Shown: in pieces, positions 290 to 11,597 of the stretch
How the letters are laid out: the number at the start of each line of letters is the position of its first letter
How positions within the stretch are numbered: the first letter of the stretch is position 1
Virus record (IMG/VR): IMGVR_UViG_3300032116_001082
Location: 1-27,492 of that record
Source: a virus
DNA: 27,492 nt
Strand: one strand, 5' to 3'
Notes under the pieces: generated by a model
The model's database searches: none
The model's input: the letters and a program-made list of their open reading frames with translations, nothing else
Told to the model about the DNA's origin: nothing
Made by a program: the position numbers and the translations under genes

Positions 290-318
290 TTGTCGTTGTC
301 CCTAATAACGGATACATT
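290..318 (+). promoter_or_regulatory. Type 1 promoter P1 (leaderless)
   Basis: -35 TTGTCG at 290-295, a 17-nt spacer carrying AATAACGGA, and -10 TACATT at 313-318. The ATG at 326 is 7 nt beyond the -10, so the transcript should begin at or next to the start codon. An A-tract (271-276) lies upstream. Confidence 0.75.
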
Positions 319-325
319 GACATAC

Positions 326-634
326 ATGAAGGAAATCCCCAACATCACCGCCCCTGTCCACGACGACCACTTGGAAGTGGACTGCCCGTCGTGCGACGAT
401 GGCGTCAACACCGAGAACATCAACTTCTACGAGGAGGAGGCGGAAGTGGGCAACGGCGGTCCTGACGCTCTGACGCTCCGCTACCTGTCGTTCCTGCCCA
501 CCGAGTGCGAGTGCTACTCCTGCGGTCAGCGTGTCATCGTGACCCCTGACGACGACCACGCTCTTGACGATGCTTGGGACAACGCCCCCAAGAGGGACAA
601 GGAACTGGCAATGGGGAAGGCGTGGTACCTGTGA
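326..634 (+). CDS. Small acidic zinc-ribbon-like protein
   Basis: 102 residues starting MKEIPNITAP. It has two CxxC knuckles, CPSC (about 18-21) and CYSC (about 65-68), a spacing typical of a zinc ribbon, in an otherwise acidic chain. The ATG at 326 is chosen because promoter P1 ends at 318 and no Shine-Dalgarno exists; an in-frame TTG at 290 lies inside the promoter. The stop overlaps the GTG of the next gene (GTGA), so this is the first gene of a run to 1850 with all stop/start junctions overlapping. No specific family recognised; a nucleic-acid-binding role would be inference. Confidence 0.8.
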   Translation: MKEIPNITAPVHDDHLEVDCPSCDDGVNTENINFYEEEAEVGNGGPDALTLRYLSFLPTECECYSCGQRVIVTPDDDHALDDAWDNAPKRDKELAMGKAWYL

Positions 635-876
635 GAACCGACCCACTCACGGGTGGCTCCTACGACAGGGAACACCACACCTACACCTACTACCACGGGC
701 TGAGCCCCGAGGAAGCCGACAGGCTCATGGAGTGCCAGACATACCGTGAGCGTGACGCCCTCTTTGCCGAGATACTGGCAGAGCATGGGCGTGACCCCAT
801 CGTCCACGAACCCGACGAGGACGGACACGAACAGACCTATCCAGGTGAGCGCATCTGGTGGAAAGGAACATCATGA
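631..876 (+). CDS. Hypothetical phage protein
   Basis: 81 residues starting V/M-RTDPLTGGSYDREHH from a GTG that overlaps the previous stop by 4 nt. GGGGAAGG about 10 nt upstream gives it a ribosome binding site. The chain is acidic, with an aromatic stretch YTYYHGL and a predicted helix around SPEEADRLMECQTYRERDAL. No Cys cluster or catalytic motif is visible. It lies second in the 326-1850 gene run, so it is probably translated by coupling. Function unknown. Confidence 0.7.
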   Translation: MRTDPLTGGSYDREHHTYTYYHGLSPEEADRLMECQTYRERDALFAEILAEHGRDPIVHEPDEDGHEQTYPGERIWWKGTS

Positions 877-1073
877 GAGAAATCGCACACATCTCTGCGG
901 TCACCTGCGTCATCTTCGCACCCGTGTTCATGATTACCGACTTCGCTGTCGGGGCTGGCGCGGGCGTGCTAGGCGTGCTGACGCTCATCCATCTGCGCCA
1001 ACTGGACAAGCCCAAGCCCGTGTTCTACCGAGGCTCACGCTCCCACAGGAGGGACGACGATGAAATGTTCTAA
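873..1073 (+). CDS. Small membrane protein
   Basis: 66 residues. Residues 5-45 are strongly hydrophobic (about AVTCVIFAPVFMITDF and then GAGAGVLGVLTLIHL), enough for one long or two short membrane segments. A basic tail (KPKPVFYRGSRSHRRDDD) follows and probably faces the cytoplasm. The ATG overlaps the previous stop (ATGA) and has GGAAAGGAAC upstream as ribosome binding site. Position suggests co-translation with the flanking hypotheticals. Function unknown; a short phage membrane protein is all that can be claimed. Confidence 0.75.
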   Translation: MREIAHISAVTCVIFAPVFMITDFAVGAGAGVLGVLTLIHLRQLDKPKPVFYRGSRSHRRDDDEMF

Positions 1074-1335
1074 CTGCGACAACCAATACAAGAACTACGG
1101 CGAGGAGCATTACGAGGGTCATCTCCAGCCCGTTCACGGTTTGTCGTTCAATGTCGCTGACTGGACGCACTACTACGGCTTCTCCGACTTGTGGGGGGAC
1201 GACACGGACTTTCGGGTTGCCCTCTGCCACGACTGCTCTGTCGCTCTCTGCCGTGCTATCCCCGCCATCGGGGCCTTCATGACGGGTGGGCATCGGCATG
1301 ACGGCGAACCCTGCTGTGAGTTCTCTGGATGCTGA
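1060..1335 (+). CDS. Cys-rich zinc-binding hypothetical protein
   Basis: 91 residues starting MKCSNCDNQYKNYG. It has CSNC at residues 3-6, a second pair CHDC in the middle, a further Cys, and a C-terminal CCEFSGC, with several His between. The layout suggests one or two structural zinc sites. AGGAGGG sits 7 nt before the ATG, a clear ribosome binding site. The first 14 nt overlap the end of the membrane-protein gene, and the last 7 nt overlap the next ORF. No known family recognised. Confidence 0.75.
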   Translation: MKCSNCDNQYKNYGEEHYEGHLQPVHGLSFNVADWTHYYGFSDLWGDDTDFRVALCHDCSVALCRAIPAIGAFMTGGHRHDGEPCCEFSGC

Positions 1336-1850
1336 CCTCATACGCACTTACGGTTGAGGAGGAGGCACTCGCTACCCGCATCGGGTACGAGCGGCAAGCC
1401 CCGATGCTTGGTCAGCCAGAGCGCAACCGCAACTACTCGGAAGGCGACGCATGGGAGGCGTTCCAGCACATCGTCTGCGTCGGCTCGGAAATCGCTTTCG
1501 CACGAATGCTGGGGGACACCACCTTCGTTCCTCATGTCAATAAGTTCAAGTCCGAACTTGACCTCCCTGAATGGGGCGAGGTGCGCTACGGCTTCCCACG
1601 GGGCTGGCCAAACCGTCGGGGAACACTCAACGGGTTGCGTATGACCGTCAATGACGATGACCATCTGAAGTACGCACTCTTGGCAGAAGGGCTGTCCAAC
1701 AGAACTCGGCGTGAAGCCCCAGACTGGCTGGGAGCCCCGTATGTCGCCATCGGCTGGCTGTGGGGCTGGGAGGCAAAGCGAGATGAGTGGCGGTACAACC
1801 AGACCAGTTGGTACGCCCCCATCTCGGCTCTCCATCGCTTCGCGTTGTGA
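1329..1850 (+). CDS. Hypothetical phage protein, possible nuclease-like fold
   Basis: 173 residues, the longest gene of this run. It shows a pattern seen in many phage hypotheticals: a Glu-Ala helix (SEIAFARMLG), a strand with EVR (LPEWGEVRYG), then DDDHLKYALLAEG and YVAIGWLWGWEAKRDEW. The ordered E / EVR / DDxx(Y) / EAK pattern resembles restriction-endonuclease-like folds, but this is inference from shape, not a family hit. The ATG at 1329 overlaps the previous gene. The final Leu-stop codons TTG TGA are also the -35 hexamer of promoter P2, so gene end and promoter share bases. Confidence 0.75.
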   Translation: MLTSYALTVEEEALATRIGYERQAPMLGQPERNRNYSEGDAWEAFQHIVCVGSEIAFARMLGDTTFVPHVNKFKSELDLPEWGEVRYGFPRGWPNRRGTLNGLRMTVNDDDHLKYALLAEGLSNRTRREAPDWLGAPYVAIGWLWGWEAKRDEWRYNQTSWYAPISALHRFAL

Positions 1851-1873
1851 AATGCCCGAATAAGGGGTACGCT
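1845..1873 (+). promoter_or_regulatory. Type 1 promoter P2, reading a short RNA
   Basis: -35 TTGTGA 1845-1850 (overlapping a stop codon), 17-nt spacer, -10 TACGCT 1868-1873. It is followed by CGTCAGTAGATGG, closely matching P4 (CGTTAGTAGATGG). Transcription should start near 1880. Confidence 0.7.
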
Positions 1874-1879
1874 CGTCAG

Positions 1880-1966
1880 TAGATGGGGCATTCCATCGGT
1901 GGTGAAAGACCACACAACTACATCCAACGGGGGGAAGCCTCATCGCTCTGGCGGTGGGGCTTTTCC
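1880..1966 (+). ncRNA. Candidate structured short RNA
   Basis: About 85 nt from promoter P2 to a terminator. It contains hairpin GATGG/CCATC (1882-1897), hairpin GTGGT-GAAAG-ACCAC (about 1899-1913) and the terminator hairpin at 1935. The first hairpin and its flanks recur at 2707-2721 behind P4, so the structure looks conserved. Alternatively this is only the attenuated leader of the gene at 2004, through which some transcripts read. Confidence 0.5.
1935..1966 (+). terminator. Intrinsic terminator
   Basis: AAGCCTCATCG and CGGTGGGGCTT pair over 11 positions (two G-U) around a CTCTGG loop, followed by TTCC. It lies between P2 and the gene at 2004, so it ends or attenuates the P2 transcript. 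Confidence 0.7.
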
Positions 1967-2003
1967 TTTGCTACGATTCGGCTTTCGGCAGAAAGGCACC
2001 ATC

Positions 2004-2204
2004 ATGGGCAAGGGCGGAGCAAAGCGGAGCGGGAGTCCCGTCATCCAAGCGAACGACAAGATTTACTGGGCTGGCTCAAAGGTCAGCACCCACAAGTGCG
2101 TGTGCGGCAAGGAGACGCGGCGGGGCATGCTGGTCATGAAGGGCGCCGACTACTACTGCTCCTACACCTGTGTGCCGAAGGTAGAAGAAGTTTCTGCCGA
2201 CTGA
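2004..2204 (+). CDS. Small basic zinc-ribbon-like protein
   Basis: 66 residues starting MGKGGAKRSGSPVIQAND. A basic Gly/Lys N-terminus precedes CVCG (about 38-41) and, 20 residues on, CSYTC, giving a four-Cys set fit for one zinc ion. GAAAGGCA lies about 7 nt before the ATG and fixes the start; in-frame codons further upstream run through a terminator hairpin and are rejected. It stands alone between the P2 terminator and promoter P3, whose -35 begins 3 nt after the stop. Function unknown. Confidence 0.7.
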   Translation: MGKGGAKRSGSPVIQANDKIYWAGSKVSTHKCVCGKETRRGMLVMKGADYYCSYTCVPKVEEVSAD

Positions 2205-2206
2205 GG

Positions 2207-2235
2207 TTGTCGTTGCCTCTAATAAGGGATACGGT
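2207..2235 (+). promoter_or_regulatory. Type 1 promoter P3 (leaderless)
   Basis: -35 TTGTCG 2207-2212, spacer 17 nt with AATAAGGGA, -10 TACGGT 2230-2235, ATG at 2242 after 6 nt. Confidence 0.75.
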
Positions 2236-2241
2236 GACAGT

Positions 2242-2544
2242 ATGAATACAACCATGACCGACCACTGGGCAAGCGTTGAGGAAGCGGTCAAGACCGCACG
2301 GCTCATCGCTTGGGATACCTGTCACAAGATTTACCTTGCGATGGACGAGGAGCAGGAAGCGTGGTTCGTTGAGAACTACTCACCCGACATCTTCCGAGGC
2401 ACCCCCGACGAGATGCTGGCGACCCTCCACTCGTGGTACTACCAGTCCTGTCCCCTGAGGTTCATCAACGCAGTTGAGACAAACGACGACGACCCGAACG
2501 CTGGGTTCACCGACCTCATTCCGCAGTTCGCTGAGGACGACTAG
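2242..2544 (+). CDS. Conserved hypothetical phage protein
   Basis: 100 residues. The pattern WDTCHKIYLAMDEEQ, then YSP/TPDEMLATLHSWYYQSC, then LRFINAV and GFTDLIPQF is one I recognise in general terms from many actinophage hypotheticals. No function is known. The chain is acidic and helical, with no signal peptide or catalytic motif. The ATG is leaderless behind P3 (6 nt from the -10) and has no Shine-Dalgarno. A type 2 repeat begins 11 nt after the stop, so it is a one-gene transcription unit. Confidence 0.8.
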   Translation: MNTTMTDHWASVEEAVKTARLIAWDTCHKIYLAMDEEQEAWFVENYSPDIFRGTPDEMLATLHSWYYQSCPLRFINAVETNDDDPNAGFTDLIPQFAEDD

Positions 2545-2555
2545 GACTACTGAGT

Positions 2556-2583
2556 CTTCCGCCACCGTGTAGTGATTAGAAAC
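2556..2583 (+). repeat. Intergenic repeat type 2, copy 2
   Basis: CTTCCGCCACCGT, five variable bases, then GATTAGAAACAC, 11 nt behind the stop of the gene at 2242. No hairpin terminator precedes this copy. The gap 2584-2669 holds nothing else recognisable. Confidence 0.7.
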
Positions 2584-2669
2584 ACTCATCTGGTGGCCCC
2601 GACATTCATCTGAGCCTGCCGTGTTCACTTCTGGCTCACGGGACTCTCGGGAAAACTTTCTGCTCCGCG

Positions 2670-2698
2670 TTGTGATTACGCCTAATAACGGATACGCT
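2670..2698 (+). promoter_or_regulatory. Type 1 promoter P4
   Basis: -35 TTGTGA 2670-2675, spacer 17 nt with AATAACGGA, -10 TACGCT 2693-2698. An AAAACTTTCT upstream element lies at about 2653-2662. The downstream sequence matches that of P2 rather than running straight into a gene. Confidence 0.75.
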
Positions 2699-2704
2699 CG
2701 TTAG

Positions 2705-2814
2705 TAGATGGAAGCCCCATCGGTGAGGAGCCACTAGGAACCCGCCCTCTCGTGAAGCCGAAAGGTGGAGGAGGAACGGAGGTGGCTCGCTCACAAACCG
2801 AAAGGACGGAAACC
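2705..2814 (+). ncRNA. Structured 5' leader of the gene at 2815
   Basis: The leader begins with hairpin GATGG-AAGCC-CCATC (2707-2721), the same stem as in the P2 RNA. GTGAGGAGCCAC (2722-2733) can pair with GTGGCTCGCTCAC (2782-2794) with a single bulge. A nine-codon ORF (2708-2737) overlaps the first arm. This could be an attenuator or translational switch. No terminator is seen. Confidence 0.4.
2708..2737 (+). CDS. Possible nine-codon leader peptide
   Basis: ATG to TAG encodes MEAPSVRSH. It lies 9 nt behind the -10 of P4 and ends inside the structured leader of the gene at 2815. It has no Shine-Dalgarno, so it would be translated as a near-leaderless start. It may be coincidental. Confidence 0.25.
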   Translation: MEAPSVRSH

Positions 2815-3006
2815 ATGAAGTACGCACGGAAAGCATGGGAAGTGGCGGGCTACGCCTACCACGCCTCCCTCTACTGCGCCCCCTGTGGCGGGACTCTGCC
2901 TGAGACCGACCCCGAGGGGAACGACAAGCACCCCGTCTTCGTGGGCGACTCCATGCTCGGTGCGTGGACTTGCGAGAAGTGCGACCTCCCCGCTACCGAG
3001 TGGTAG
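2815..3006 (+). CDS. Small zinc-ribbon-like protein
   Basis: 63 residues starting MKYARKAWEVAGYAYHA. Two pairs, CAPCG (about 20-24) and CEKC (about 53-56), about 30 residues apart, fit a zinc ribbon; the ribbon makes up most of the protein. AAAGGACGG precedes the ATG by 5-6 nt and fixes the start. An in-frame GTG at 2752 would add a Gly-rich stretch lying within the leader structure and is rejected. It is transcribed from P4 through a structured leader of about 110 nt. Function unknown. Confidence 0.7.
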   Translation: MKYARKAWEVAGYAYHASLYCAPCGGTLPETDPEGNDKHPVFVGDSMLGAWTCEKCDLPATEW

Positions 3007-3041
3007 TCCCGTCGCTCCGACAGAAAAGTTCTTCGGTTGGG

Positions 3042-3070
3042 TTGTGAAACCCTCCAATAACGGATAGAGT
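3042..3070 (+). promoter_or_regulatory. Type 1 promoter P5 (with leader)
   Basis: -35 TTGTGA 3042-3047, 17-nt spacer, -10 TAGAGT 3065-3070. Unlike most copies, 26 nt containing GAAAGGAC separate the -10 from the ATG at 3097, so this transcript keeps a ribosome binding site. Confidence 0.75.
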
Positions 3071-3096
3071 GAAATCAACCCTGACGAAAGGACACT

Positions 3097-3408
3097 ATGG
3101 GTATCACATACATCAACGAAACCCTGCGGGTGAACGGCAAGAAAGTCGCCACCCTCTCGGACACGGAGTTCACGCCCCTGCGTGACGCTCTGTTCACGCA
3201 CCTGACTCGCCCTGCGGCAGTCCTGCTGGCACTCTCCGTGCTGGGGGAAGCGACCACGGGCGAAGTGGCAGACACGCTGGGCATGGACAGGTCAAATGTC
3301 TACCGCCTGCTCTGTGCGCTGGCGGAGGAAGGCTCTGTGAGCGTCGTGGCGGAGGCTCACAACGACGGCAAGCGTGGGCGACCCACGCACATCTGGAAGG
3401 TCTCCTGA
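3097..3408 (+). CDS. Winged-helix DNA-binding regulator
   Basis: 103 residues. The C-terminal two thirds form a MarR/ArsR-like winged helix: AVLLALSVLGEATTGEVADTLGMDRSNVYRLLCALAEEGSV, with recognition helix around DRSNVYRLLCAL (about residues 67-78), then a wing with GKRGRPTHIWKVS. The N-terminal 30 residues (YINETLRVNGKKVATLSD) look like a beta hairpin. GAAAGGAC gives a good ribosome binding site. It is the only clear transcription regulator in the small-gene region and is itself read from a type 1 promoter (P5). It is therefore a candidate for controlling that promoter family (inference). Confidence 0.8.
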   Translation: MGITYINETLRVNGKKVATLSDTEFTPLRDALFTHLTRPAAVLLALSVLGEATTGEVADTLGMDRSNVYRLLCALAEEGSVSVVAEAHNDGKRGRPTHIWKVS

Positions 3409-3427
3409 AAAAATCCTCCCCGCTAGG

Positions 3428-3456
3428 TTGTCATTCTGACCAATAACGGATAGAGT
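3428..3456 (+). promoter_or_regulatory. Type 1 promoter P6 (leaderless)
   Basis: -35 TTGTCA 3428-3433, spacer 17 nt with AATAACGGA, -10 TAGAGT 3451-3456, ATG at 3463 after 6 nt. An A-tract (AAAAAATCCT) lies about 15 nt upstream of the -35. Confidence 0.75.
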
Positions 3457-3462
3457 GACTTC

Positions 3463-3570
3463 ATGAGTGGGAAGGAGGTAATCATGAACTGGGAAGCCAT
3501 CGCAACGGCGACCGAGGAGGAACTCGCGGAAATCGCGGAGTGGCTCCGAGAGGAGCATCACGAGGACTGA
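3463..3570 (+). CDS. Acidic microprotein with two possible starts
   Basis: 35 residues (MSGKEVIMNWEAIATATEEE...) ending EEHHED. The body is one amphipathic acidic helix. The ATG at 3463 sits 6 nt behind the -10 of P6 and suits leaderless initiation. A second in-frame ATG at 3484 (28 residues) has a near-perfect AAGGAGGT 5 nt upstream. Both may be used, giving two forms, or the first seven codons may serve as a translated ribosome binding site. A terminator follows at 3588. It is too short for most gene callers. Function unknown. Confidence 0.6.
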   Translation: MSGKEVIMNWEAIATATEEELAEIAEWLREEHHED

Positions 3571-3587
3571 CAGCCCTCCACAACGAG

Positions 3588-3615
3588 ACCCCCTGCCGAA
3601 AGGTGGGGGGTTTCC
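3588..3615 (+). terminator. Intrinsic terminator
   Basis: ACCCCCTGCC, GAAA tetraloop, GGTGGGGGGT, then TTCC: a 10-bp stem right behind the microprotein gene. Confidence 0.8.
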
Positions 3616-3667
3616 TGTAACACCCCTCTGATAAACTATTGACAACAACCAAGAAAGGAAACACAGA

Positions 3668-3805
3668 ATGGAACGGAAATGTGAAGTGTGCGGAGACACC
3701 GCCTACCACTTCCCAGTAGGAATCAACGACGACGGATACTGTTGCTGGTGTTACAACAGCGAGAATCCATGTCCAGATGAGTACTGTGACAGCCACAACA
3801 AATAA
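3668..3805 (+). CDS. Cys-rich zinc-finger microprotein
   Basis: 45 residues, eight of them Cys: CEVC at 5-8, CCWC at 25-28, then C35 and C40. The two CxxC pairs 17 residues apart fit a small zinc ribbon. GAAAGGAA lies 8 nt before the ATG. A TTGACA at 3639 resembles a -35, but no matching -10 is seen. It is bounded by terminators at 3588 and 3818, so it must have its own promoter or depend on read-through. No family recognised. Confidence 0.65.
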   Translation: MERKCEVCGDTAYHFPVGINDDGYCCWCYNSENPCPDEYCDSHNK

Positions 3806-3817
3806 ATCAACGAAGAG

Positions 3818-3848
3818 CCCCTCGTCCCAATGGGCGGGGGGTTTCTTC
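3818..3848 (+). terminator. Intrinsic terminator
   Basis: CCCCTCG pairs with CGGGGGG around an inner CCC-AAT-GGG hairpin, followed by TTTCTTC. It ends the zinc-finger microprotein unit before the tRNA cluster. Confidence 0.8.
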
Positions 3849-3888
3849 ATGCCCGTGTTTCTGGCGGGCCGTGAGTCCCGTCGTGCGC

Positions 3889-3917
3889 TTGCTTGTTCTT
3901 CAATGTCTAGATAAGGT
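3889..3917 (+). promoter_or_regulatory. Promoter of the tRNA cluster
   Basis: TTGCTT at 3889-3894, 17 nt, TAAGGT at 3912-3917. The predicted start near 3924 is 8 nt before the first tRNA. The spacer lacks the AATAACGGA of the type 1 promoters. Confidence 0.5.
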
Positions 3918-3931
3918 GCGGGACTACAAAA

Positions 3932-4005
3932 CCCCCGTGATGCGTCTGGTTGACGCAAGGTGTCTTATAAACACCCGTAGCAAGGTTCAATTCCCTGACG
4001 GGGGA
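3932..4005 (+). tRNA. tRNA-Ile (anticodon UAU)
   Basis: 74 nt: acceptor CCCCCGT/ACGGGGG, D stem TGCG/CGCA, anticodon stem GGTGT/ACACC around loop CTTATAA (anticodon TAT), and a TTCAATT loop on a stem with one mismatch. It would read AUA directly, unlike the usual bacterial lysidine-modified CAU tRNA. CCA is not encoded. The isotype is assigned from the anticodon only. Confidence 0.8.
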
Positions 4006-4009
4006 CAGA

Positions 4010-4084
4010 GGGTGCGTAGCCCAATAGGCAGGAGGCAAGGAACTTAAAATTCCTACAGTGCGGGTTCAAGTCCCGCCGCACCCA
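4010..4084 (+). tRNA. tRNA-Leu (anticodon UAA)
   Basis: 75 nt: acceptor GGGTGCG/CGCACCC, anticodon stem AGGAA/TTCCT around CTTAAAA (anticodon TAA), T arm GCGGG-TTCAAGT-CCCGC. It starts 4 nt after the previous tRNA. The variable loop is only 5 nt, whereas bacterial tRNA-Leu normally has a long arm. CCA is not encoded. Confidence 0.85.
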
Positions 4085-4088
4085 CATA

Positions 4089-4164
4089 GGGCGTTTGGCG
4101 CAGTTGGCAGCGCAACTCGTTTACACCGAGTAGGTCGGGGGTTCAAGTCCCTCAACGCCCACCA
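4089..4164 (+). tRNA. tRNA-Val (anticodon UAC)
   Basis: 73 nt plus encoded CCA (4162-4164): acceptor GGGCGTT/AACGCCC, D stem GCGC/GCGC, anticodon stem ACTCG/CGAGT around TTTACAC (anticodon TAC), T arm GGGGG-TTCAAGT-CCCTC. It starts 4 nt after tRNA-Leu. The gap 4165-4241 holds a GGCTGC-GCGA-GCAGCC hairpin (4174-4189) without a T-run. Confidence 0.9.
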
Positions 4165-4241
4165 CCAACGGGGCTGCGCGAGCAGCCGCACGGCTCAGCG
4201 ACCCGCCCATGTGGGTAGCACAAAAAAATCCTCGGCTCAGG

Positions 4242-4270
4242 TTGTCATTGTGACTAATAACGGATACAGT
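4242..4270 (+). promoter_or_regulatory. Type 1 promoter P7 (leaderless)
   Basis: -35 TTGTCA 4242-4247, spacer 17 nt with AATAACGGA, -10 TACAGT 4265-4270, ATG at 4277 after 6 nt. An AAAAAAATCCT tract lies about 12 nt upstream of the -35. Confidence 0.8.
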
Positions 4271-4276
4271 GAACTC

Positions 4277-4561
4277 ATGGATGAAGCACTCACCTTGGAA
4301 ACACCCACTGGGACGCTCGTTCTCCACCCCAACGGAGATGTAGTGTCCCCCGAGCCCCACAGCCGTAGCGTCCGCAACTGGGCGTACACGGCGACCGACG
4401 AGACCCTCACCGTGGTGTGGGACGAGGAAGCGTGGTGCTTCCTGTCGGTTCCGATGGAACTGGTCGCCCTCATGGTCGGCATGCCGAGTCTCCAGCGATT
4501 CATGGACGGCGTAGTCAAGCCCAACCACGAGGCTCGCAGGTTCGCAGACACGCTGGTCTGA
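4277..4561 (+). CDS. KTSC-like domain protein, paralogue A
   Basis: 94 residues. The N-terminal LETPTGTLVLHPNGDVVSPEPHSRSVR is followed by a KTSC-like core: WAYTATDETLTVVWDEEAWCFLSVPMELVALMVGMPSLQRFMDG. This keeps the small strand-strand-helix plan of the KTSC family (Y-x-GVP...phe-N/D), whose molecular role is unknown. The gene at 7571 is a close paralogue, and 8144 a more distant, more canonical one. The start follows P7 by 6 nt without Shine-Dalgarno. A terminator and type 2 repeat follow, as for paralogue B. Confidence 0.75.
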   Translation: MDEALTLETPTGTLVLHPNGDVVSPEPHSRSVRNWAYTATDETLTVVWDEEAWCFLSVPMELVALMVGMPSLQRFMDGVVKPNHEARRFADTLV

Positions 4562-4566
4562 CCGAC

Positions 4567-4599
4567 AGCCCCCTGCCCCTCACGGGGTGGGGGGCTTTC
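4567..4599 (+). terminator. Intrinsic terminator
   Basis: AGCCCCCTGCCCC, loop TCAC, GGGGTGGGGGGCT, then TTCC: a 13-bp stem 5 nt behind the KTSC gene. Its T-run is also the start of the type 2 repeat. Confidence 0.85.
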
Positions 4600-4720
4600 C
4601 GCCACCGTACAGTGATTAGAAACACACAGCGGCCCCGCCGCTCGCGTCTGAGAGAAATGTCCGAGTTTCGCTCCCAGGGGTCACGGGGCTCCCGCCCTCG
4701 CTGCGCTCGGTTGGGCTCGG
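4596..4720 (+). repeat. Composite intergenic element, copy 1 (includes type 2 repeat 4596-4623)
   Basis: Order: TTTCCGCCACCGT, ATTAGAAAC, hairpin AGCGGC-CCC-GCCGCT, a GTTTCG/GAAA region, then GCCCTCGCTGCGCTCGGTTG at 4694 and CTCGGGG. The same order and spacing occur at 6285-6410 and 7887-8020. It carries no convincing ORF. Confidence 0.65.
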
Positions 4721-4756
4721 GGGGTGTGGCAGAGTTCTTGCTCTGTACTGGAAGTC

Positions 4757-4765
4757 TGTGGATAA
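4757..4765 (-). promoter_or_regulatory. DnaA-box-like site upstream of P8
   Basis: TGTGGATAA, the exact complement of the consensus DnaA box TTATCCACA, ends 17 nt before the -35 of P8. The same spacing occurs at P11, P12 and P14. Confidence 0.5.
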
Positions 4766-4782
4766 CTTTCTTGCCCGTCAGG

Positions 4783-4811
4783 TTGTGATTGTGACTAATA
4801 ACGGATACAGT
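4783..4811 (+). promoter_or_regulatory. Type 1 promoter P8 (leaderless)
   Basis: -35 TTGTGA 4783-4788, spacer 17 nt with AATAACGGA, -10 TACAGT 4806-4811, ATG at 4818 after 6 nt. Confidence 0.8.
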
Positions 4812-4817
4812 GAAACT

Positions 4818-5084
4818 ATGAACACAGCACATGACCTGTACTACAACGAAGAACTGTACCGCCCGCCTGTCGCCACGCACGTCGCGTCTCCGCCTGCTGA
4901 CGACCCCCACGCCGAGACAGTCTTCACCGACCAGCCCTGCGAAGCCTGCGCCACGCCCGTGGGCTGGGTGTGGGGTGCCAACGATGACACCGACTTCCTG
5001 ACATTCGCCCCCTACTGGGAGGTTGGCGAAGAAGAAGCCCTGTGCGAGGACTGCTACGACCGTTGGCAGTCCGAAGAAATCTGA
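4818..5084 (+). CDS. Acidic zinc-ribbon-like protein
   Basis: 88 residues starting MNTAHDLYYNEELYRPP. An acidic, Pro-rich N-terminal 40 residues precede a four-Cys ribbon: CEACATPVGWVWG (about 41-53), then, after an aromatic stretch (DTDFLTFAPYWEVG), CEDCYDRW near the end. The start is leaderless behind P8. P9 begins 10 nt after the stop with no terminator between, so P8 transcripts may also cover the next gene. Function unknown; protein or nucleic-acid binding is only suggested by the ribbon. Confidence 0.75.
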   Translation: MNTAHDLYYNEELYRPPVATHVASPPADDPHAETVFTDQPCEACATPVGWVWGANDDTDFLTFAPYWEVGEEEALCEDCYDRWQSEEI

Positions 5085-5093
5085 CCCGACAGG

Positions 5094-5122
5094 TTGTGAA
5101 ACCGACCAATAACGGATACATT
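5094..5122 (+). promoter_or_regulatory. Type 1 promoter P9 (leaderless)
   Basis: -35 TTGTGA 5094-5099, spacer 17 nt with AATAACGGA, -10 TACATT 5117-5122, ATG at 5129 after 6 nt. It lies directly behind the previous gene. Confidence 0.8.
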
Positions 5123-5128: not shown

Positions 5129-5365
5129 ATGAACAACACACAAGAAACCACAGCAATCCTGCGAGAGAACTACTACACCCTCGTCAATACTGGCGCGGAT
5201 GCGGTGGAGGCTCTGATGGACGACTGGCTGGACGGACGGTTCCAGCACAACTTGGAGGACTGGAACACCACGCCCGACGAGATGCGGGAAATCGTGATGG
5301 ACTTCACGGCGTGGCTCCTCGCACCCGAGCGTCGCAACACCCCAGCGATGGAGTTCTACCGATAG
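5129..5365 (+). CDS. Small helical acidic protein, unknown
   Basis: 78 residues, MNNTQETTAILRENYYTLVN... The chain is almost wholly helical, with aromatic/acidic stretches (ALMDDWLDGRFQHNLEDW) and a conserved-looking TTPDEMREIVMDFTAWLLAP. There are no Cys pairs, membrane segments or catalytic motifs. The start is leaderless behind P9, and GC-rich hairpins follow the stop. Function unknown. Confidence 0.75.
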   Translation: MNNTQETTAILRENYYTLVNTGADAVEALMDDWLDGRFQHNLEDWNTTPDEMREIVMDFTAWLLAPERRNTPAMEFYR

Positions 5366-5968: not shown

Positions 5969-5974
5969 GTGGGG

Positions 5975-6003
5975 TTGTGAAAGAGACCAATAACGGATAC
6001 GGT
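5975..6003 (+). promoter_or_regulatory. Type 1 promoter P10 (leaderless)
   Basis: -35 TTGTGA 5975-5980, spacer 17 nt with AATAACGGA, -10 TACGGT 5998-6003, ATG at 6010 after 6 nt. Confidence 0.8.
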
Positions 6004-6009: not shown

Positions 6010-6243
6010 ATGAAGCAAGAAACCCACTCCATTGACCGTCCCATCGCCTTCACGGGCGCGCCCGCGCAGGCGGAAGCGAACTTCGCCACCCACATGTTCA
6101 GCGCGTGGGGCGCAGACGTGCGGTGCGACAGGTGCGACTCGCGTCCGACCCACGTCGCAGCGTCCTACCCGTGCGGTGCGGAAGTCCCCCGCGAAATCGC
6201 CACTTTCTACGACGACGGCTCCACGGAGGTCGTCGCCGTCTGA
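6010..6243 (+). CDS. Small Cys-containing protein, unknown
   Basis: 77 residues, MKQETHSIDRPIAFTGAPAQ... A four-residue CDRC pair (about 39-42) and a later C (SYPCG, about 55) lie between an Ala-rich N-terminus and a C-terminal strand pair (EIATFYDDGSTEVVAV). The layout recalls a half zinc ribbon. The start is leaderless behind P10. A strong terminator follows 7 nt after the stop. Function unknown. Confidence 0.7.
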   Translation: MKQETHSIDRPIAFTGAPAQAEANFATHMFSAWGADVRCDRCDSRPTHVAASYPCGAEVPREIATFYDDGSTEVVAV

Positions 6244-7070: not shown

Positions 7071-7076
7071 TACGCT
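7071..7076 (+). promoter_or_regulatory. -10 element of a possible leaderless promoter
   Basis: TACGCT followed by GAGTTC and the ATG at 7083, the same 6-nt distance as in the type 1 promoters. No -35 or AATAACGGA is present. The adjacent gene has no Shine-Dalgarno. Confidence 0.4.
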
Positions 7077-7082
7077 GAGTTC

Positions 7083-7301
7083 ATGAACGAACTTGATGAG
7101 TACGAGCAGAACCAGCGCATTGAGAGGCTTGAGACGCAGGTGCGTGTGCTAGAAGCACGGCTCATGGAACTCGCCTCCGCACTCCGAGGAGAAGACCTCA
7201 CGCGTAGTCCCGCTGGTGGACGCAATGCTGGTCAATGGCAAGGAGGGGACAACACCCTCGGTGCGATGGCGAAGCGACTCGGGGAACTCGCAGGCGACTG
7301 A
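7083..7301 (+). CDS. Short coiled-coil protein
   Basis: 72 residues. Residues 2-38 (NELDEYEQNQRIERLETQVR... then LEARLMELASALRG) have heptad-spaced Leu/Ile/Val and should form a coiled coil, so it probably dimerises. The C-terminal half is Gly/Asn-rich and flexible (SPAGGRNAGQWQGGDN), with a short final helix. The start lacks a Shine-Dalgarno and lies 6 nt behind TACGCT. Function unknown. Confidence 0.7.
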   Translation: MNELDEYEQNQRIERLETQVRVLEARLMELASALRGEDLTRSPAGGRNAGQWQGGDNTLGAMAKRLGELAGD

Positions 7302-7485
7302 ACGACGGGGCTGAAGACAGGCCCGCGTGTCTTCTTGGAAGTGGCGGGCAGAGAAATCTTTCCCCTTTTTCCGCACGGAACTTGACATTCTTCCTTCGTT
7401 CTGGTAACAACGCGGAGTCCCGTCGTAGCCCGCACCCCTTCCCACCGCAGCGGGGCCCACGGCCCTCGGCGCCCGCCGCCCCACG

Positions 7486-7518
7486 TTGTCCACAGCCTGT
7501 GGGGAAATCTGTGGACAA
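7486..7518. promoter_or_regulatory. Three DnaA-box-like sites upstream of P11
   Basis: TTGTCCACA (7486-7494), TGTGGGGAA (7498-7506) and TGTGGACAA (7510-7518) start exactly 12 nt apart. The last ends 17 nt before the -35 of P11. TTGTCCACA is the actinobacterial DnaA-box form. The rest of the gap (7302-7485) shows a TTGACA at 7382 with TAACAA 17 nt on, a weak promoter candidate, and no ORF. Confidence 0.55.
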
Positions 7519-7535
7519 GTTTCTTGGGGGATAGG

Positions 7536-7564
7536 TTGTGATTCTGACCAATAACGGATACGAT
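7536..7564 (+). promoter_or_regulatory. Type 1 promoter P11 (leaderless)
   Basis: -35 TTGTGA 7536-7541, spacer 17 nt with AATAACGGA, -10 TACGAT 7559-7564, ATG at 7571 after 6 nt. Confidence 0.8.
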
Positions 7565-7570
7565 GTAATC

Positions 7571-7849
7571 ATGTTCACAGAAGCAGAAACACCCACAGGC
7601 ACCATCCGCATCTACGACAACGGCGACGTGGTCTCGCCCGACCCGCACTCACGCTCCGTGCGTGGCTGGGCGTGGCTCGCTGGCGACGCTTCGCTGGTCG
7701 TGTCGTGGGAGGACAAGGCGTACCGCTTCGTGGCGGTTCACCCCGACTTCGTGGTCGGGCTGTTCGCCACCCCGAGCCTCCAAAAGTTCATTGACCGAGC
7801 CATCACTCCGCTCCACGACGCTGAGGACTTCGTGGAGGCGCTGGTCTGA
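7571..7849 (+). CDS. KTSC-like domain protein, paralogue B
   Basis: 92 residues. It closely parallels the protein at 4277: TPTGTIRIYDNGDVVSPDPHSRSVRGWAW versus TPTGTLVLHPNGDVVSPEPHSRSVRNWAY, followed by the same strand/helix core (SWEDKAYRFVAVHPDFVVGLFATPSLQKFIDRAI). Shared core residues include PHSRSVR and PSLQ(K/R)F. The flanks are duplicated as well: a leaderless type 1 promoter in front, terminator plus type 2 repeat behind. The role of KTSC domains is unknown. Confidence 0.75.
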   Translation: MFTEAETPTGTIRIYDNGDVVSPDPHSRSVRGWAWLAGDASLVVSWEDKAYRFVAVHPDFVVGLFATPSLQKFIDRAITPLHDAEDFVEALV

Positions 7850-7856
7850 CGGGTCG

Positions 7857-7890
7857 GCCCGCTCGGGAACCTCCCCCCGAGCGGGCTTTC
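7857..7890 (+). terminator. Intrinsic terminator
   Basis: GCCCGCTCGG pairs with CCGAGCGGGC over 10 bp around a 10-nt loop, followed by TTTCC, the start of the next type 2 repeat. Confidence 0.85.
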
Positions 7891-8020
7891 CGCCACCGTA
7901 CTACGATTAGTAAGCGCTCCCCCTGGGGCCCCGCCCCACCAAAGTCTCCGCGAAACCTGCTTCTCCGCGACTCGGGCTGGCGGGACTGCCGCCCTCGCCT
8001 GCGGCTCGGTTGCCCTCGGT
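7887..8020 (+). repeat. Composite intergenic element, copy 3 (includes type 2 repeat 7887-7914)
   Basis: TTTCCGCCACCGT, GATTAGTAAG, a GGGGCCCCGCCCC block, GCGAAACC, GGGCTGGCGGG, then GCCCTCGCCTGCGGCTCGGT at 7991 and GCCCTCGG. Same order as the copies at 4596 and 6285. Confidence 0.65.
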
Positions 8021-8070
8021 GCGCAGGCTTGCCCTGTGGGGGTGCGTCAGGGTTTCCTGCTCCCTGTGCC

Positions 8071-8091
8071 TGTGGACAAATCTGTGGAAAA
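8071..8091 (-). promoter_or_regulatory. Two DnaA-box-like sites upstream of P12
   Basis: TGTGGACAA (8071-8079) and TGTGGAAAA (8083-8091) start 12 nt apart. The second ends 17 nt before the -35 of P12, the same geometry as at P11. Confidence 0.5.
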
Positions 8092-8108
8092 GAAATCCTG
8101 TCGGCAGG

Positions 8109-8137
8109 TTGTAAATCCGACCAATAACGGATACATT
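8109..8137 (+). promoter_or_regulatory. Type 1 promoter P12 (leaderless)
   Basis: -35 TTGTAA 8109-8114, spacer 17 nt with AATAACGGA, -10 TACATT 8132-8137, ATG at 8144 after 6 nt. Confidence 0.8.
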
Positions 8138-8143
8138 GAACTC

Positions 8144-8392
8144 ATGACACACACACAAATCCCCACGGGAATCATGACCGCCAGCGACACCTTCATCTCG
8201 GTCACGACGGACTCATCGTTCGTCAGCGGGTGGAGTTACGAAGCCACCGAAAAGACAATGCTCATCTCGTTCAAGGACGGCAGGCAATACTTCTACGCAG
8301 GAGTCCCCGTCGGGGTTGTGGCGAAGTTCATCGCCACCGACAGCGTCGGCAAGACCTTCAACGCCGAACTCAAAGGGAAGTACGAACTCTGA
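8144..8392 (+). CDS. KTSC domain protein, paralogue C
   Basis: 82 residues. From about residue 26 it is a canonical KTSC domain: SSFVSGWSYEATEKTMLISF, then KDGRQYFYAGVPVGVVAKFI and VGKTFNAELKGKYEL, with the family's Y-x-GVP turn and the F-N-x-x-(L/I)-K-G-x-Y end. The KTSC family is known from phage and bacterial genomes but has no assigned activity. The N-terminal IPTGI aligns with TPTGT of paralogues A and B. It is leaderless behind P12. The stop is followed by GC-rich small hairpins up to 8460. Confidence 0.85.
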   Translation: MTHTQIPTGIMTASDTFISVTTDSSFVSGWSYEATEKTMLISFKDGRQYFYAGVPVGVVAKFIATDSVGKTFNAELKGKYEL

Positions 8393-8487
8393 CACACCCC
8401 TCGGGGGGACTCTCCACTCGGGGACTCCCCCCACAGCGGGGACGCCCCTGCGGGGTCCCGTGTATCATTGGTCATGCGAGGTAAGCC

Positions 8488-8604
8488 ATGACCCAAGAGC
8501 CTGAGAAGCCAGAAGAAGGGACGAAGAAGAAGTCCCGCAAAATCACCAAGCCGCGCTTCATACAGCGCTTCGGACAGCCGCCTCGCTGCGCTGGCTGCCG
8601 CTGA
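8488..8604 (+). CDS. Basic microprotein, unknown
   Basis: 38 residues, MTQEPEKPEEGTKKKSRKIT..., ending CAGCR. The N-terminus is acidic, the middle Lys/Arg-rich, and the C-terminus carries a CxxC. GAGGTAAG precedes the ATG and could serve as ribosome binding site. A five-codon ORF (ATG 8474, MRGKP) just behind TATCAT (8463-8468) overlaps its start. The last third of the ORF falls in GC-rich DNA resembling the intergenic blocks, so the gene is uncertain. Confidence 0.4.
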   Translation: MTQEPEKPEEGTKKKSRKITKPRFIQRFGQPPRCAGCR

Positions 8605-8682
8605 CGACGGGGCTTGGCGCTCGGTTAGCGGGAGTGCCAGAATCTGTCAAGCAAGTCTCATAAAAAAACCTTGTGGGGGAGG

Positions 8683-8711
8683 TTGTCGTTCTGACCAATA
8701 AGGGATACGAT
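8683..8711 (+). promoter_or_regulatory. Type 1 promoter P13 (leaderless)
   Basis: -35 TTGTCG 8683-8688, spacer 17 nt with AATAAGGGA, -10 TACGAT 8706-8711, ATG at 8718 after 6 nt. An AAAAAAACC tract lies upstream. Confidence 0.8.
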
Positions 8712-8717
8712 GGACTC

Positions 8718-8891
8718 ATGGTGAAAGGAGCCATGATGGGATACAACCCTGACGACAGCGACGACGGTTACGACCGCGCGAAAGATGCCTACCTGGAAGG
8801 GTGGGGGCGCCCCTACAACGAGCGGACTCGCCGTGAGGAGCAGGACTGGGCAGACGAGGAGCGTCGCCAGCGTAGAGAAGGGGGGTGGTGA
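8718..8891 (+). CDS. Small highly charged protein
   Basis: 57 residues, MVKGAMMGYNPDDSDDGYDRAKDAY..., then ERTRREEQDWADEERRQRRE. The chain is mostly charged and helical in the second half. The ATG at 8718 is leaderless behind P13. In-frame ATGs at 8733 and 8736 have AAAGGAG just upstream and could give a shorter form, as in the gene at 3463. The stop overlaps the next ATG (TGATG). Function unknown. Confidence 0.65.
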   Translation: MVKGAMMGYNPDDSDDGYDRAKDAYLEGWGRPYNERTRREEQDWADEERRQRREGGW

Positions 8892-9079
8892 TGTACGCCG
8901 TGTGGTACCACTCTGCTGGCTGTCTCCCAGACGGGGACGGCCCCGAGTTCGTCGGAATCCTCTCCGAGTGCGAGGTGTTTATCAATGAACACAAGTCGGA
9001 CTACGAGCGTCCAGAAGTCACTCACGACCTCTACTCTCTCTACATTGAGGAGTACGATGGAACCGAGGAACGGGTCTAG
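8891..9079 (+). CDS. Small hypothetical protein
   Basis: 62 residues, MYAVWYHSAGCLPDGDGPEF..., with VGILSECEVFINEHKSDYERPEV and a C-terminal acidic tail (YIEEYDGTEERV). The alternating strand/helix pattern and the aromatic N-terminus (YAVWYHS) recall small phage hypotheticals; no function known. It is coupled to the upstream gene by TGATG, with GAAGGGGGG as a weak ribosome binding site. A type 2 repeat starts 7 nt after the stop. Confidence 0.65.
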   Translation: MYAVWYHSAGCLPDGDGPEFVGILSECEVFINEHKSDYERPEVTHDLYSLYIEEYDGTEERV

Positions 9080-9085
9080 GGACGC

Positions 9086-9113
9086 TTTCCGCCACCGTAC
9101 AACTATTCGGTAG
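9086..9113 (+). repeat. Intergenic repeat type 2, copy 6 (short form)
   Basis: TTTCCGCCACCGT followed by a diverged ACTATTCGGTAG. An AGCGCG...CGCGCT hairpin follows as in the longer copies, but the GCCCTCG block is missing. Confidence 0.6.
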
Positions 9114-9176
9114 CGCGCTTTCGGGGCTTCGCCCCCCCAGACGCGCTTCGTGGGTTTCGTTGTGCTACCCAGCCAG

Positions 9177-9210
9177 TTATCCACAGGGCTGGGTACAAAT
9201 CTGTGGAAAA
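9177..9210. promoter_or_regulatory. Two DnaA-box-like sites upstream of P14
   Basis: A consensus TTATCCACA at 9177-9185 and TGTGGAAAA at 9202-9210. The second ends 17 nt before the -35 of P14. Confidence 0.55.
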
Positions 9211-9227
9211 CTTTCTTGGGGCGCAGG

Positions 9228-9256
9228 TTGTCATTCCGACCAATAACGGGTACAGT
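9228..9256 (+). promoter_or_regulatory. Type 1 promoter P14 (leaderless)
   Basis: -35 TTGTCA 9228-9233, spacer 17 nt with AATAACGGG, -10 TACAGT 9251-9256, ATG at 9263 after 6 nt. Confidence 0.8.
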
Positions 9257-9262
9257 GAAACT

Positions 9263-9436
9263 ATGAACACATTGGAAGCATTCATCATCGTCATCATGTT
9301 CCTCGCAAAGTTGGGGGGCATCGGAATCTTCATCGTCGGCGCATGGCACACTTGGTTGTGGCTGACGGAGACGGTCGCTCCTCGCATCGTGCGAGCGTTT
9401 GAGGACGACGAGGACGACGAGGACGAGTGGGCATGA
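9263..9436 (+). CDS. Small single-pass membrane protein
   Basis: 57 residues. Residues 5-35 are hydrophobic (LEAFIIVIMFLAKLGGIGIF, then IVGAWHTWLWL), enough for one long or two tight membrane segments. A cytosolic-looking tail ends in a run of Asp/Glu (EDDEDDEDEWA). The acidic tail could mimic DNA or bind a basic partner, but that is speculation. It is leaderless behind P14. ATGA overlap couples it to the next gene. Confidence 0.7.
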   Translation: MNTLEAFIIVIMFLAKLGGIGIFIVGAWHTWLWLTETVAPRIVRAFEDDEDDEDEWA

Positions 9437-9612
9437 GGTACATAGTCCTCGCCCACCTCCCCATCAAGGACGGCGCAGAACGGGGCTGGGCAGAAGCCGA
9501 GTGGGTCGTCTTTGACGGCGTTCACGCTCGCAAGCAGGCGGAAGCGAAAGCAGAAGTCTGGCGCAAGTGGTTCCACGAAGTCCAAATCCGAGAAGTCAGT
9601 CTCCCTATCTAG
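9433..9612 (+). CDS. Small hypothetical protein
   Basis: 59 residues, MRYIVLAHLPIKDGAERGWAEAEW..., then a helix with ARKQAEAKAEVWRKWFHEVQ and a final strand IREVSLPI. It is a strand-helix-strand miniprotein with no Cys and no catalytic motif. The ATG overlaps the previous stop by 4 nt, so translation is probably coupled to the membrane protein. Function unknown. Confidence 0.65.
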   Translation: MRYIVLAHLPIKDGAERGWAEAEWVVFDGVHARKQAEAKAEVWRKWFHEVQIREVSLPI

Positions 9613-9635
9613 GCGCAGGGGACGGCCCCGCGCGA

Positions 9636-9641
9636 TAGGAT
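9636..9641 (+). promoter_or_regulatory. -10 element of a possible leaderless promoter
   Basis: TAGGAT, then GCGAGC and the GTG start of the helicase at 9648: the same 6-nt gap as in type 1 promoters. No -35 is visible. Confidence 0.4.
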
Positions 9642-9647
9642 GCGAGC

Positions 9648-11567
9648 GTGCTTTGGCTTGCTGACGACCACTTGATACTGGACACGCCCTACGATGCCAA
9701 GCAGGTCGCAGAAATCAAGTCCATCAAGGGCGCAAAATGGGACAAGGTCGGCAAGGTCTGGCGACTGCCCGTAGCGTCTTTGGAGGAGGCACGGGGCTTC
9801 GCCCAGAGGCACGGCTACACGATTGAGCCAGAAGTCATGAAGTTCACGCTCCCAGCGCACAAGAACTCGGACACGAACGGCGTGAGGCTGGACGGCAACT
9901 GGCTCTACCTCGCGTTTGACTACGACCCAGTCCGTGTCAGGTCGGTCAAGCAAATCTCGGGCATCACTTGGCACGCGAAGACGAAGGCGTGGCGGGCCCC
10001 GCTGACGAGCATCAACGAGGTGGTCAGGTGGGCAGAGACATTCAGGCAACCCGTGGACGAAGCAGTCACCCGTCGTGCGACAGAGATAGAGGAGTCGCTC
10101 TCGGAACTCAAAGAAGCCTCACGCTTGGTGGACGCAGATGTGGAGGTCGCGGGACTCCAGGCGAACCTTCTCCCGTACCAGCGAGCAGGTGTCGCATACG
10201 CCCTGCGTGCGAGGAAAACTTTCATTGCCGACGAGATGGGGCTTGGCAAGACGCTCCAAGCCATCGCAACTCTGGAAGCAGCAAACGCGGAGGCCCCGTC
10301 GTACCCCGCAGTCATCGTCTGCCCAGCAACTTTGGTTCTCAACTGGAAAGCCGAATACGCCCGTTGGCTCCCGCACCGCAAGGTTGAGGTGGTCACCGAC
10401 CGCAAATCCTTCCCGACAGACTATGAAGTCGTCGTCATCGGATACTCCAATATTACTGCTTGGGAGAAGCAACTGTCAAGCCATCGCTCCTATGTTTTTG
10501 ACGAGAGCCACTACTGTAAAACGGCGACCGCACAGCGAACCAAGAGCGCAGTCAAAATTACGAAGTCGGCTCCAAAGGACGGCATCGTGTTGTGCCTGAC
10601 GGGAACACCAGTCACCAACCGCCCCGCTGAATACGCCAGCCAACTTCGCATCATCGGACAGTTGGACAAGTTCGGAGGCGAGTGGGGGTTCTACCGACGC
10701 TACTGCGCAGCCTTCAAGGACAAGTGGGGGCATTGGCACCTTGACGGTCACTCCAACCTGAACGAACTCAACGACAAGTTGCGCTCGGTCTGCTACATTC
10801 GTCGGACGAAAGAGCAAGTACTCACCGAACTCCCACCTGTTCTCCATGACCCAGTCGTCGTGGACGGGACTGCCGCAGGGCTCAAAGAGTACGCAAAAGC
10901 AGAAGCCGACATTGTTGAGTACCTCATAGAGAGGGCGAAGGAAATCGCTCTGGAACTCGGGAAGTCGCCCAACTCGGCAGCCGTGGTCGCTCGCATGAAA
11001 GCGGAGTCCAACCAGCATCTTGTGAGGTTGTCCGTGTTGCGTCGCCTCTCAGCAAAAGCCAAGATGCCCGCCGTTGTGGAGTGGGTGGAGTCCCGCGTGG
11101 CGGAGGGTCGCAAGGTCGTCATCGCCGCCCACCACAGGGATGTCGTAGACGAACTAGCCAAGAGGTTCGGAAATCTCCGCATTCAGGGAGGGATGGATAT
11201 CAATGACATTGAGGAACAGAAACGAAAGTTCATGGAACTGCCCGTGGAAGAAGCGCCAGTCATCGTTCTGTCCATACAGGCGGCAAAGACGGGGCATAAC
11301 CTCCAGGTGGCACAGGATGTCCTCTTTGTGGAACTCCCATGGACACCAGCCGATGTAGACCAGACTTACAGCCGTTGTCACAGGCTCGGGCAGAAGTCGT
11401 CCGTGACCGCCACCTACCTGCTAACTAGCGGAACCATTGACGAGGAGATTTACTCGCTCATTGAGAAGAAGCGAAATGTGGTGAATCAGGCGGTGGACGG
11501 GGCTGAAGACACCGAGGCGGAAGAGTCTCTGTTTGCAACCCTCTTACAGAATTATTTGCTCCAATGA
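9648..11567 (+). CDS. SNF2-family DNA helicase/ATPase (SMARCAL1-like)
   Basis: 639 residues. The first 150 hold two similar modules (residues about 8-60 and 83-135, the second around YLAFDYDPVRVRSVKQISG and TWHAKTKAWRAP), resembling the HARP-type repeats that SMARCAL1 proteins use to bind forked DNA. The ATPase follows: DEMGLGKT (Walker A) from residue 195, DESH (motif II) at 285, LTGTPVTN (motif III). The second RecA lobe has AAHHRDVVDELAKRF, SIQAAKTGHNLQ and the SNF2 signature DQTYSRCHRLGQ, then TIDEEIYSLIEKK. It should translocate on DNA and may remodel or restart phage forks (family knowledge). The GTG start has no Shine-Dalgarno and lies 6 nt behind TAGGAT, so it is probably leaderless. 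Confidence 0.9.
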   Translation: MLWLADDHLILDTPYDAKQVAEIKSIKGAKWDKVGKVWRLPVASLEEARGFAQRHGYTIEPEVMKFTLPAHKNSDTNGVRLDGNWLYLAFDYDPVRVRSVKQISGITWHAKTKAWRAPLTSINEVVRWAETFRQPVDEAVTRRATEIEESLSELKEASRLVDADVEVAGLQANLLPYQRAGVAYALRARKTFIADEMGLGKTLQAIATLEAANAEAPSYPAVIVCPATLVLNWKAEYARWLPHRKVEVVTDRKSFPTDYEVVVIGYSNITAWEKQLSSHRSYVFDESHYCKTATAQRTKSAVKITKSAPKDGIVLCLTGTPVTNRPAEYASQLRIIGQLDKFGGEWGFYRRYCAAFKDKWGHWHLDGHSNLNELNDKLRSVCYIRRTKEQVLTELPPVLHDPVVVDGTAAGLKEYAKAEADIVEYLIERAKEIALELGKSPNSAAVVARMKAESNQHLVRLSVLRRLSAKAKMPAVVEWVESRVAEGRKVVIAAHHRDVVDELAKRFGNLRIQGGMDINDIEEQKRKFMELPVEEAPVIVLSIQAAKTGHNLQVAQDVLFVELPWTPADVDQTYSRCHRLGQKSSVTATYLLTSGTIDEEIYSLIEKKRNVVNQAVDGAEDTEAEESLFATLLQNYLLQ

Positions 11568-11568
11568 G

Positions 11569-11597
11569 TTGCTTTTCGGGCAAATAACGGATAGAGT
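11569..11597 (+). promoter_or_regulatory. Type 1 promoter P15, reading a noncoding RNA
   Basis: TTGCTT 11569-11574, 17-nt spacer with AATAACGGA, -10 TAGAGT 11592-11597. The core spacer is kept but no ORF follows within the next 100 nt. Confidence 0.65.

Follow-up and report, generated by a model that had tools for sequence, protein, structure and literature searches.

The window, a linear IMG/VR virus record analysed over its whole length of 27,492 bases (G000), carries 15 copies of a promoter element in which the sequence between the -35 and -10 hexamers is conserved along with the hexamers themselves, and related phages carry the same frame with other spacers. Judged by sequence comparison, on which the whole analysis is based, the new part is this lineage-specific spacer, which appears to have been altered in concert over a genome's promoters. 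The reading favoured here, given a probability of about 0.55, is that these are host sigma-A-type promoters whose -35/spacer sequence would be recognised by a factor that the phage encodes and that co-evolves with it.

At the DNA level, none of 50,697 phage records matched the window. Judged by its core genes (helicase, primase/helicase, thymidylate synthase, single-strand binding protein and a WhiB-like protein), it belongs with the actinophages and is an uncultivated virus of actinobacteria; the closest proteins among isolates are those of Arthrobacter and Gordonia phages, at approximately 30-40% identity. Relatives bearing the element are G1 (44.2 kb, L150-L152), G2 (77.7 kb, L153-L156) and further fragments, and 80 relatives were gathered through an alignment of the primase. 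Many of these records are fragments, including the window, G1, G2, G14 and G23, such that the absence of a gene from them weighs little.

The promoter array and its start codons

All 15 copies lie on the plus strand between positions 289 and 11597 and follow the consensus GTTGTnATTnnnnCYAATAACGGATACAnT, with a -35 of TTGT(C/G)(A/G), TTGTAA or TTGCTT, a spacer of invariably 17 nt and a -10 of TACNNT or TAGAGT. The first-pass annotation had listed 15 near-identical promoters, 11 of them with an ATG 6-7 nt past the -10, as well as three starts with a -10 only and a 6-nt gap, and each was recovered as described, the gap being 6 nt in ten copies and 7 nt in the copy at 290. Its statement that nearly all copies share the spacer end proved slightly generous: AATAACGGA is exact in 11 of the 15, and the copies at 1845, 2207, 8683 and 9228 deviate by 1-2 bases. 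The four leadered copies begin at 1844, 2669, 3041 and 11568. The copies and the starts with a -10 only are as follows.

289-318, plus strand: promoter copy 1, GTTGTCGTTGTCCCTAATAACGGATACATT; ATG at 326, gap 7
1844-1873, plus strand: promoter copy 2, spacer AATAAGGGG; leadered
2206-2235, plus strand: promoter copy 3, spacer AATAAGGGA; ATG at 2242, gap 6; element also present at the G1 ortholog
2669-2698, plus strand: promoter copy 4; leadered
3041-3070, plus strand: promoter copy 5; leadered, the Shine-Dalgarno sequence GAAAGGA preceding ATG 3097 of a winged-helix gene
3427-3456, plus strand: promoter copy 6; ATG at 3463, gap 6
4241-4270, plus strand: promoter copy 7; ATG at 4277, gap 6
4782-4811, plus strand: promoter copy 8; ATG at 4818, gap 6; DnaA box directly upstream
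5093-5122, plus strand: promoter copy 9; ATG at 5129, gap 6
5974-6003, plus strand: promoter copy 10; ATG at 6010, gap 6
7535-7564, plus strand: promoter copy 11; ATG at 7571, gap 6; two DnaA boxes upstream
8108-8137, plus strand: promoter copy 12; ATG at 8144, gap 6
8682-8711, plus strand: promoter copy 13, spacer AATAAGGGA; ATG at 8718, gap 6
9227-9256, plus strand: promoter copy 14, spacer AATAACGGG; ATG at 9263, gap 6; DnaA box upstream
11568-11597, plus strand: promoter copy 15, -35 TTGCTT; leadered, 3′ of the helicase gene
7071-7085, plus strand: leaderless start with -10 only, TACGCT-6-ATG
9636-9650, plus strand: leaderless start with -10 only, TAGGAT-6-GTG, at the 639-aa helicase gene
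13546-13560, plus strand: leaderless start with -10 only, TACTAT-6-ATG

The element stands well clear of chance. A 31-nt matrix applied to the window, G1 and G2 finds approximately 70 sites on both strands, their orientation following that of the genes and their flanks being unrelated; copies in the window score 19-50 and the real sites of the three genomes mostly 30-50, while the top score in 20 simulated sets of the same genomes is 18.5 and the second is 11.8. The final T of the -10 is present in 63 of 63 sites, even though the search did not demand it. In its strict form, GTTG-N20-TANNNT-N6/7-ATG, the frame is found at 12 places in the window and in none of 20 simulations, and a strict 31-nt pattern that included the ATG gave almost no new matches. 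A generic promoter scan picks up 3 of the 15 copies. When a 19-base pattern was scanned against 84,980 bacterial and archaeal species genomes (GTDB), 10 single matches were returned, scattered over unrelated taxa, and no record title among them named an actinobacterium; the pattern represents one form of the W-type (window-type) core and so rules out that form, rather than all variants, as a common host element. This near absence indicates that the element is not an ordinary host promoter, and a usual host promoter was set aside as its identity.

Across the window, G1 and G2, an ATG lies 6-7 nt past the -10 at 53 of 69 sites, the gap being chiefly 6 in the window and G2 and chiefly 7 in G1, a layout that supports the earlier prediction of promoters placed for leaderless mRNAs. 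Several leadered sites of G2 carry ATC or AC at the usual distance of the ATG, which suggests that their start base would be the same as at leaderless sites. In leaderless sigma-A promoters of actinobacteria, TANNNT likewise ends 6-7 nt before the ATG and the spacer is not known to be conserved; the phage copies share that distance (11 of 15 in the window) and add the conserved spacer. TANNNT at 6-7 nt ahead of an ATG is also enriched in most relatives examined, whether or not the element is present. The suggestion that the cassette is what makes the region leaderless is therefore not upheld: leaderless starts by themselves are ordinary in this phage group, and the cassette is one specialised version of a widespread kind of start.

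The leaders that follow the copies at 1844 and 2669 (positions 1868-1900 and 2693-2725) open alike, with GTAGATGG...CCATCGGTG, and could form a hairpin close to the 5′ end.

Lineage-specific spacers in related phages

The frame of GTTG, 20 nt, TANNNT, 6-7 nt and ATG is fixed across several lineages. GTTG-N20-TANNNT-N6-ATG matches 15 times in G14, 24 in G23, 14 in G25 and 7 in G24 over whole contigs, and its reversed-pattern control gave 0 matches in 27 records; with a gap of 6 or 7 nt, array genomes hold 12-26 frames versus simulated means of 0-0.35. Within this frame the spacer takes the forms AATAACGGA, AATAAGCCA, TTACTACCGA, AACTACCGA and TTACACGCC, each over several to approximately 30 promoters. 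The window, G1 and G2 use CYAATAACGGA, G14 uses CTAATAAGCCA, G23, G24 and G25 use CTTACTACCGA, and G27 and G28 use AACTACCGA; in G22 and G17, CTTACACGCC stands ahead of CATAAT in unchanged register at several orthologous genes. Some contigs are closely related (G18/G23; G24/G25/G26), and the independent genomes behind the spacer types are fewer than the contigs.

Orthologous genes in different genomes each carry the spacer of their own genome, as exemplified by the gene behind promoter copy 12, whose orthologs in G1, G2, G14, G17, G22 and G23 have the spacer of their own lineage. Over its 11-nt core, the spacer is 0.64-0.91 identical within a genome and 0.37-0.64 identical across spacer types, as against 0.26-0.33 for the upstream flanks. 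Cassette duplication was rejected on the background identity of the flanks. In trees of the primase, helicase and DUF932 proteins, the window lies near G2, with G14, G22/G17, G27/G28 and G23/G25 forming a series alongside; G1 falls outside, though it carries the spacer of the window. Most simply, AATAACGGA would be the older spacer form and the others derived, although the trees do not settle several of the deep branchings.

Further away, the -35 itself is exchanged. In these more distant lineages GGAAGTCTG or GGAAACTCTTACCCCC takes its place with TANNNT and the gap retained: in G10 (L163-L170, 145 kb), G5 and G4, GGAAGTCTGnCC replaces the -35 and still stands ahead of TANNNT; G30 (119 kb; L279-L284) has GGAAACTCTTACCCCC in the -35 position before TANNNT and is leaderless too, and G6 uses a canonical TTGACA-17-TANNNT. 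Relatives that keep the same genes, the comparison proposed in the first-pass annotation, thus divide: in close ones the element, or its variant for that lineage, stands in the same frame, whereas distant ones use another element or TTGACA. The same annotation had taken spacer conservation beyond the needs of sigma-70 as a sign of a shared activator, repressor or phage-specific RNA polymerase partner, and a trans-acting, phage-specific partner is supported by the 31-nt core at orthologs, the unrelated flanks and the concerted shift in each lineage.

Candidate readers and alternative explanations

Under the favoured reading, phage promoters dispersed over the early region would each serve one or few small genes, their -10 being read by the host principal sigma factor (sigma-A type). 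The first transcribed base would be the A of the ATG or the one just before it, giving mostly leaderless messages, and a phage-encoded protein would read the -35/spacer and turn on the whole set together in a manner resembling sigma appropriation, having probably diverged alongside the spacer, lineage by lineage. A trans-acting, co-changing reader is proposed because the -10 and the start distance are constant while the -35/spacer changes in concert over many promoters; the -35 swaps of distant relatives, with TANNNT and gap kept, suggest a positive factor. A fuller form of this reading, in which a phage partner of host sigma-A reads the -35-to--10 sequence and the code has been rewritten several times genome-wide, leaving each lineage a private promoter set with a fixed leaderless start, is put forward tentatively.

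Two proteins are candidates for the reader, encoded at the following positions.

Window 17295-17642, plus strand: WhiB-like protein, candidate reader, a sigma-A region 4 binder by family
G2 L154:2195-2563: HA/sigma-4-like gene
G1 L150:654-1025: HA/sigma-4-like gene
G23 L262:17414-17782: HA/sigma-4-like gene
G22 L272:13752-14117: HA/sigma-4-like gene
G10 L163:10086-10457: HA/sigma-4-like gene

A WhiB-like protein is encoded in each of 17 records; proteins of this family bind region 4 of sigma-A, and one of them, WhiB7, reads DNA adjoining the -35 (PMC10245118). The C-terminal tail of the WhiB-like protein was first suggested as an exclusive mark of array phages, an idea overturned by the 80 further relatives. 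The WhiB-like protein of G1 (L151:3308-3934) and the same gene in G12 have an additional N-terminal stretch resembling a helix-turn-helix. The second candidate is a protein of approximately 123 aa with a Pfam HA (helicase-associated) domain followed by a sigma-region-4-like helix-turn-helix, without region 2, encoded in G1, G2, G10, G22, G23, G6 and G31; its gene lies approximately 3 kb ahead of the first promoter site in G1 and G2. Reading through its recognition helix was rejected, the helix being nearly invariant and the protein also present in G6 and G31, and if this protein is the reader it would therefore need its variable HA domain. A ribbon-helix-helix protein (window 19970-20272) was likewise rejected as reader, its DNA-contact strand being near-identical in all lineages.

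Several points weigh against the favoured reading. The spacer reader stands only as candidates: the WhiB C-terminal tail differs between lineages without following which phages have the array, and the recognition helix of the HA/sigma-4-like protein hardly varies over the spacer types, with the protein also found in the TTGACA-using G6. Activation, as opposed to repression, is an inference, and the start points are predicted from sequence position. The -35 of the window, TTGTCA, is also fair, and host sigma-A by itself might suffice.

Repression is an alternative that a position in the spacer would suit: bound between the -35 and -10, a phage repressor would silence all early promoters, and the lineage spacers would be immunity-type specificities, as in the repressor sites of temperate actinophages. 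Operators are typically sites specific to a lineage and common to its genome, the consensus of the window, G1 and G2 contains a loose dyad (GTnATT-N6-AATAAC), and the winged-helix gene behind promoter copy 5 has orthologs in G2, G22, G23 and G17. However, the dyad is not seen in the remaining spacer types, repression leaves unexplained the loss of the -35 TTG in the G10 and G30 lineages, and a tyrosine integrase (PF00589) was not found in 17 records, which are mostly fragments and in which serine integrases were not sought. A positive factor is favoured over an immunity repressor because of these two lineages and the lack of a tyrosine integrase match in those records, and the operator is considered rather unlikely.

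Plain host sigma-A promoters, with spacers alike through the copying of short cassettes or through a shape suiting the host polymerase, would account for the TANNNT and 6-nt gap, which are ordinary for leaderless genes and occur in relatives without the element, and for the canonical promoters of G6. This explanation is improbable, however, since copying would have to move the core exactly between flanks at background identity, the element is essentially missing from species genomes, and optimisation for the host would leave the variety of spacers within a single phage group unaccounted for. Reading of the entire element by a sigma factor or RNA polymerase of the phage's own is highly improbable. 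In length and conservation the element exceeds what a sigma-A promoter requires, and a sigma-70 factor is encoded by some freshwater actinophages (PMC10202952), yet eight contigs, among them the 145-kb G10, yielded neither a match to sigma region 2 nor a single-subunit polymerase; the polymerase search was without a positive control, and the eight contigs are mostly fragments, the window, G1 and G2 included, such that a gene could lie beyond their ends.

Among known systems, the array would by analogy work most like the middle promoters of phage T4, in which a MotA box centred at -30 replaces the -35 and MotA and AsiA appropriate sigma (PMC2988021). Both comprise many dispersed phage promoters with a host-type -10 and a phage element upstream, and no phage polymerase is needed in T4 or, on the favoured reading, in the array. 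The array is not filed as a member of this type because the window retains a -35 (TTGTNA), together with the conserved spacer, only the relatives G10, G4 and G30 being without it; unlike those of T4, its predicted messages are mostly leaderless and its element differs by lineage. Cluster K mycobacteriophages carry dispersed repeats just before the starts of small genes, also with a subcluster-specific consensus kept at orthologs: SAS, GGGATAGGAGCCC, lies beside the start codon and was tied by its authors to translation initiation, and ESAS is a 17-bp inverted repeat (PMC3203893, PMC12699233). The array differs in being a single block of -35, spacer and -10 whose end lies 6-7 nt from the ATG, and neither GGGATAGGAGCCC nor 17-bp inverted repeats were found ahead of the array ATGs inspected. 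Cluster EF Microbacterium phages have 12-13 bp start-proximal motifs of the GGGAAGGAACCC type (PMC12859693), which resemble the array in lying in several copies directly 5′ of start codons but have no described -35/-10 structure. A literature search for phage leaderless promoters with a conserved spacer found nothing direct. Streptomyces phage phiC31 likewise has a set of similar promoters in its early region.

Other dispersed elements and implications

A second dispersed element, TTCC(A/G)CCACCGT, occurs on the plus strand of the window at 67, 2557, 4597, 6286, 7888 and 9087, mostly between genes and often 75-220 nt ahead of a promoter copy. It is also present in G1, G2, G6, G10, G14, G17, G22, G23, G24 and G25, including lineages without the W-type promoter, and keeps to one strand in each multi-copy contig independently of gene direction (counts on the two strands: window 6/0, G1 9/0, G2 9/0, G6 4/0, G10 0/8, G17 8/0, G22 0/9, G23 0/8). 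It is likelier to be a polar DNA element, perhaps for replication, recombination or packaging, than an element of the transcript. The window also holds five consensus DnaA boxes (TTRTCCACA) and no others, at 4757, 7486, 7510, 8071 and 9177; all five precede a promoter copy by 25-50 bp, in steps of approximately 12 bp, as do 3 of 12 in G2 and none in G1, and DnaA might modulate a subset of the copies. Three tRNA genes in series (Ile-TAT, Leu-TAA and Val-TAC; 3932-4164) lie within the promoter array, and an Rfam search matched tRNAs alone. On the minus strand, a 2083-aa open frame occupies 20984-27235, and frames of 2452 aa in G1 and 1654 aa in G2 occupy the equivalent position, their similarity being no more than patchy.

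If the favoured reading is true, these phages would preserve a record, laid down in nature, of promoter specificity co-evolving with the protein that reads it over tens of promoters at once, one phage group having at least five types of spacer and two replacements of the -35. They would offer a testable system for studying the redirection of host sigma-A by phages of actinobacteria, and leaderless starts would be compatible with a promoter element private to the phage.

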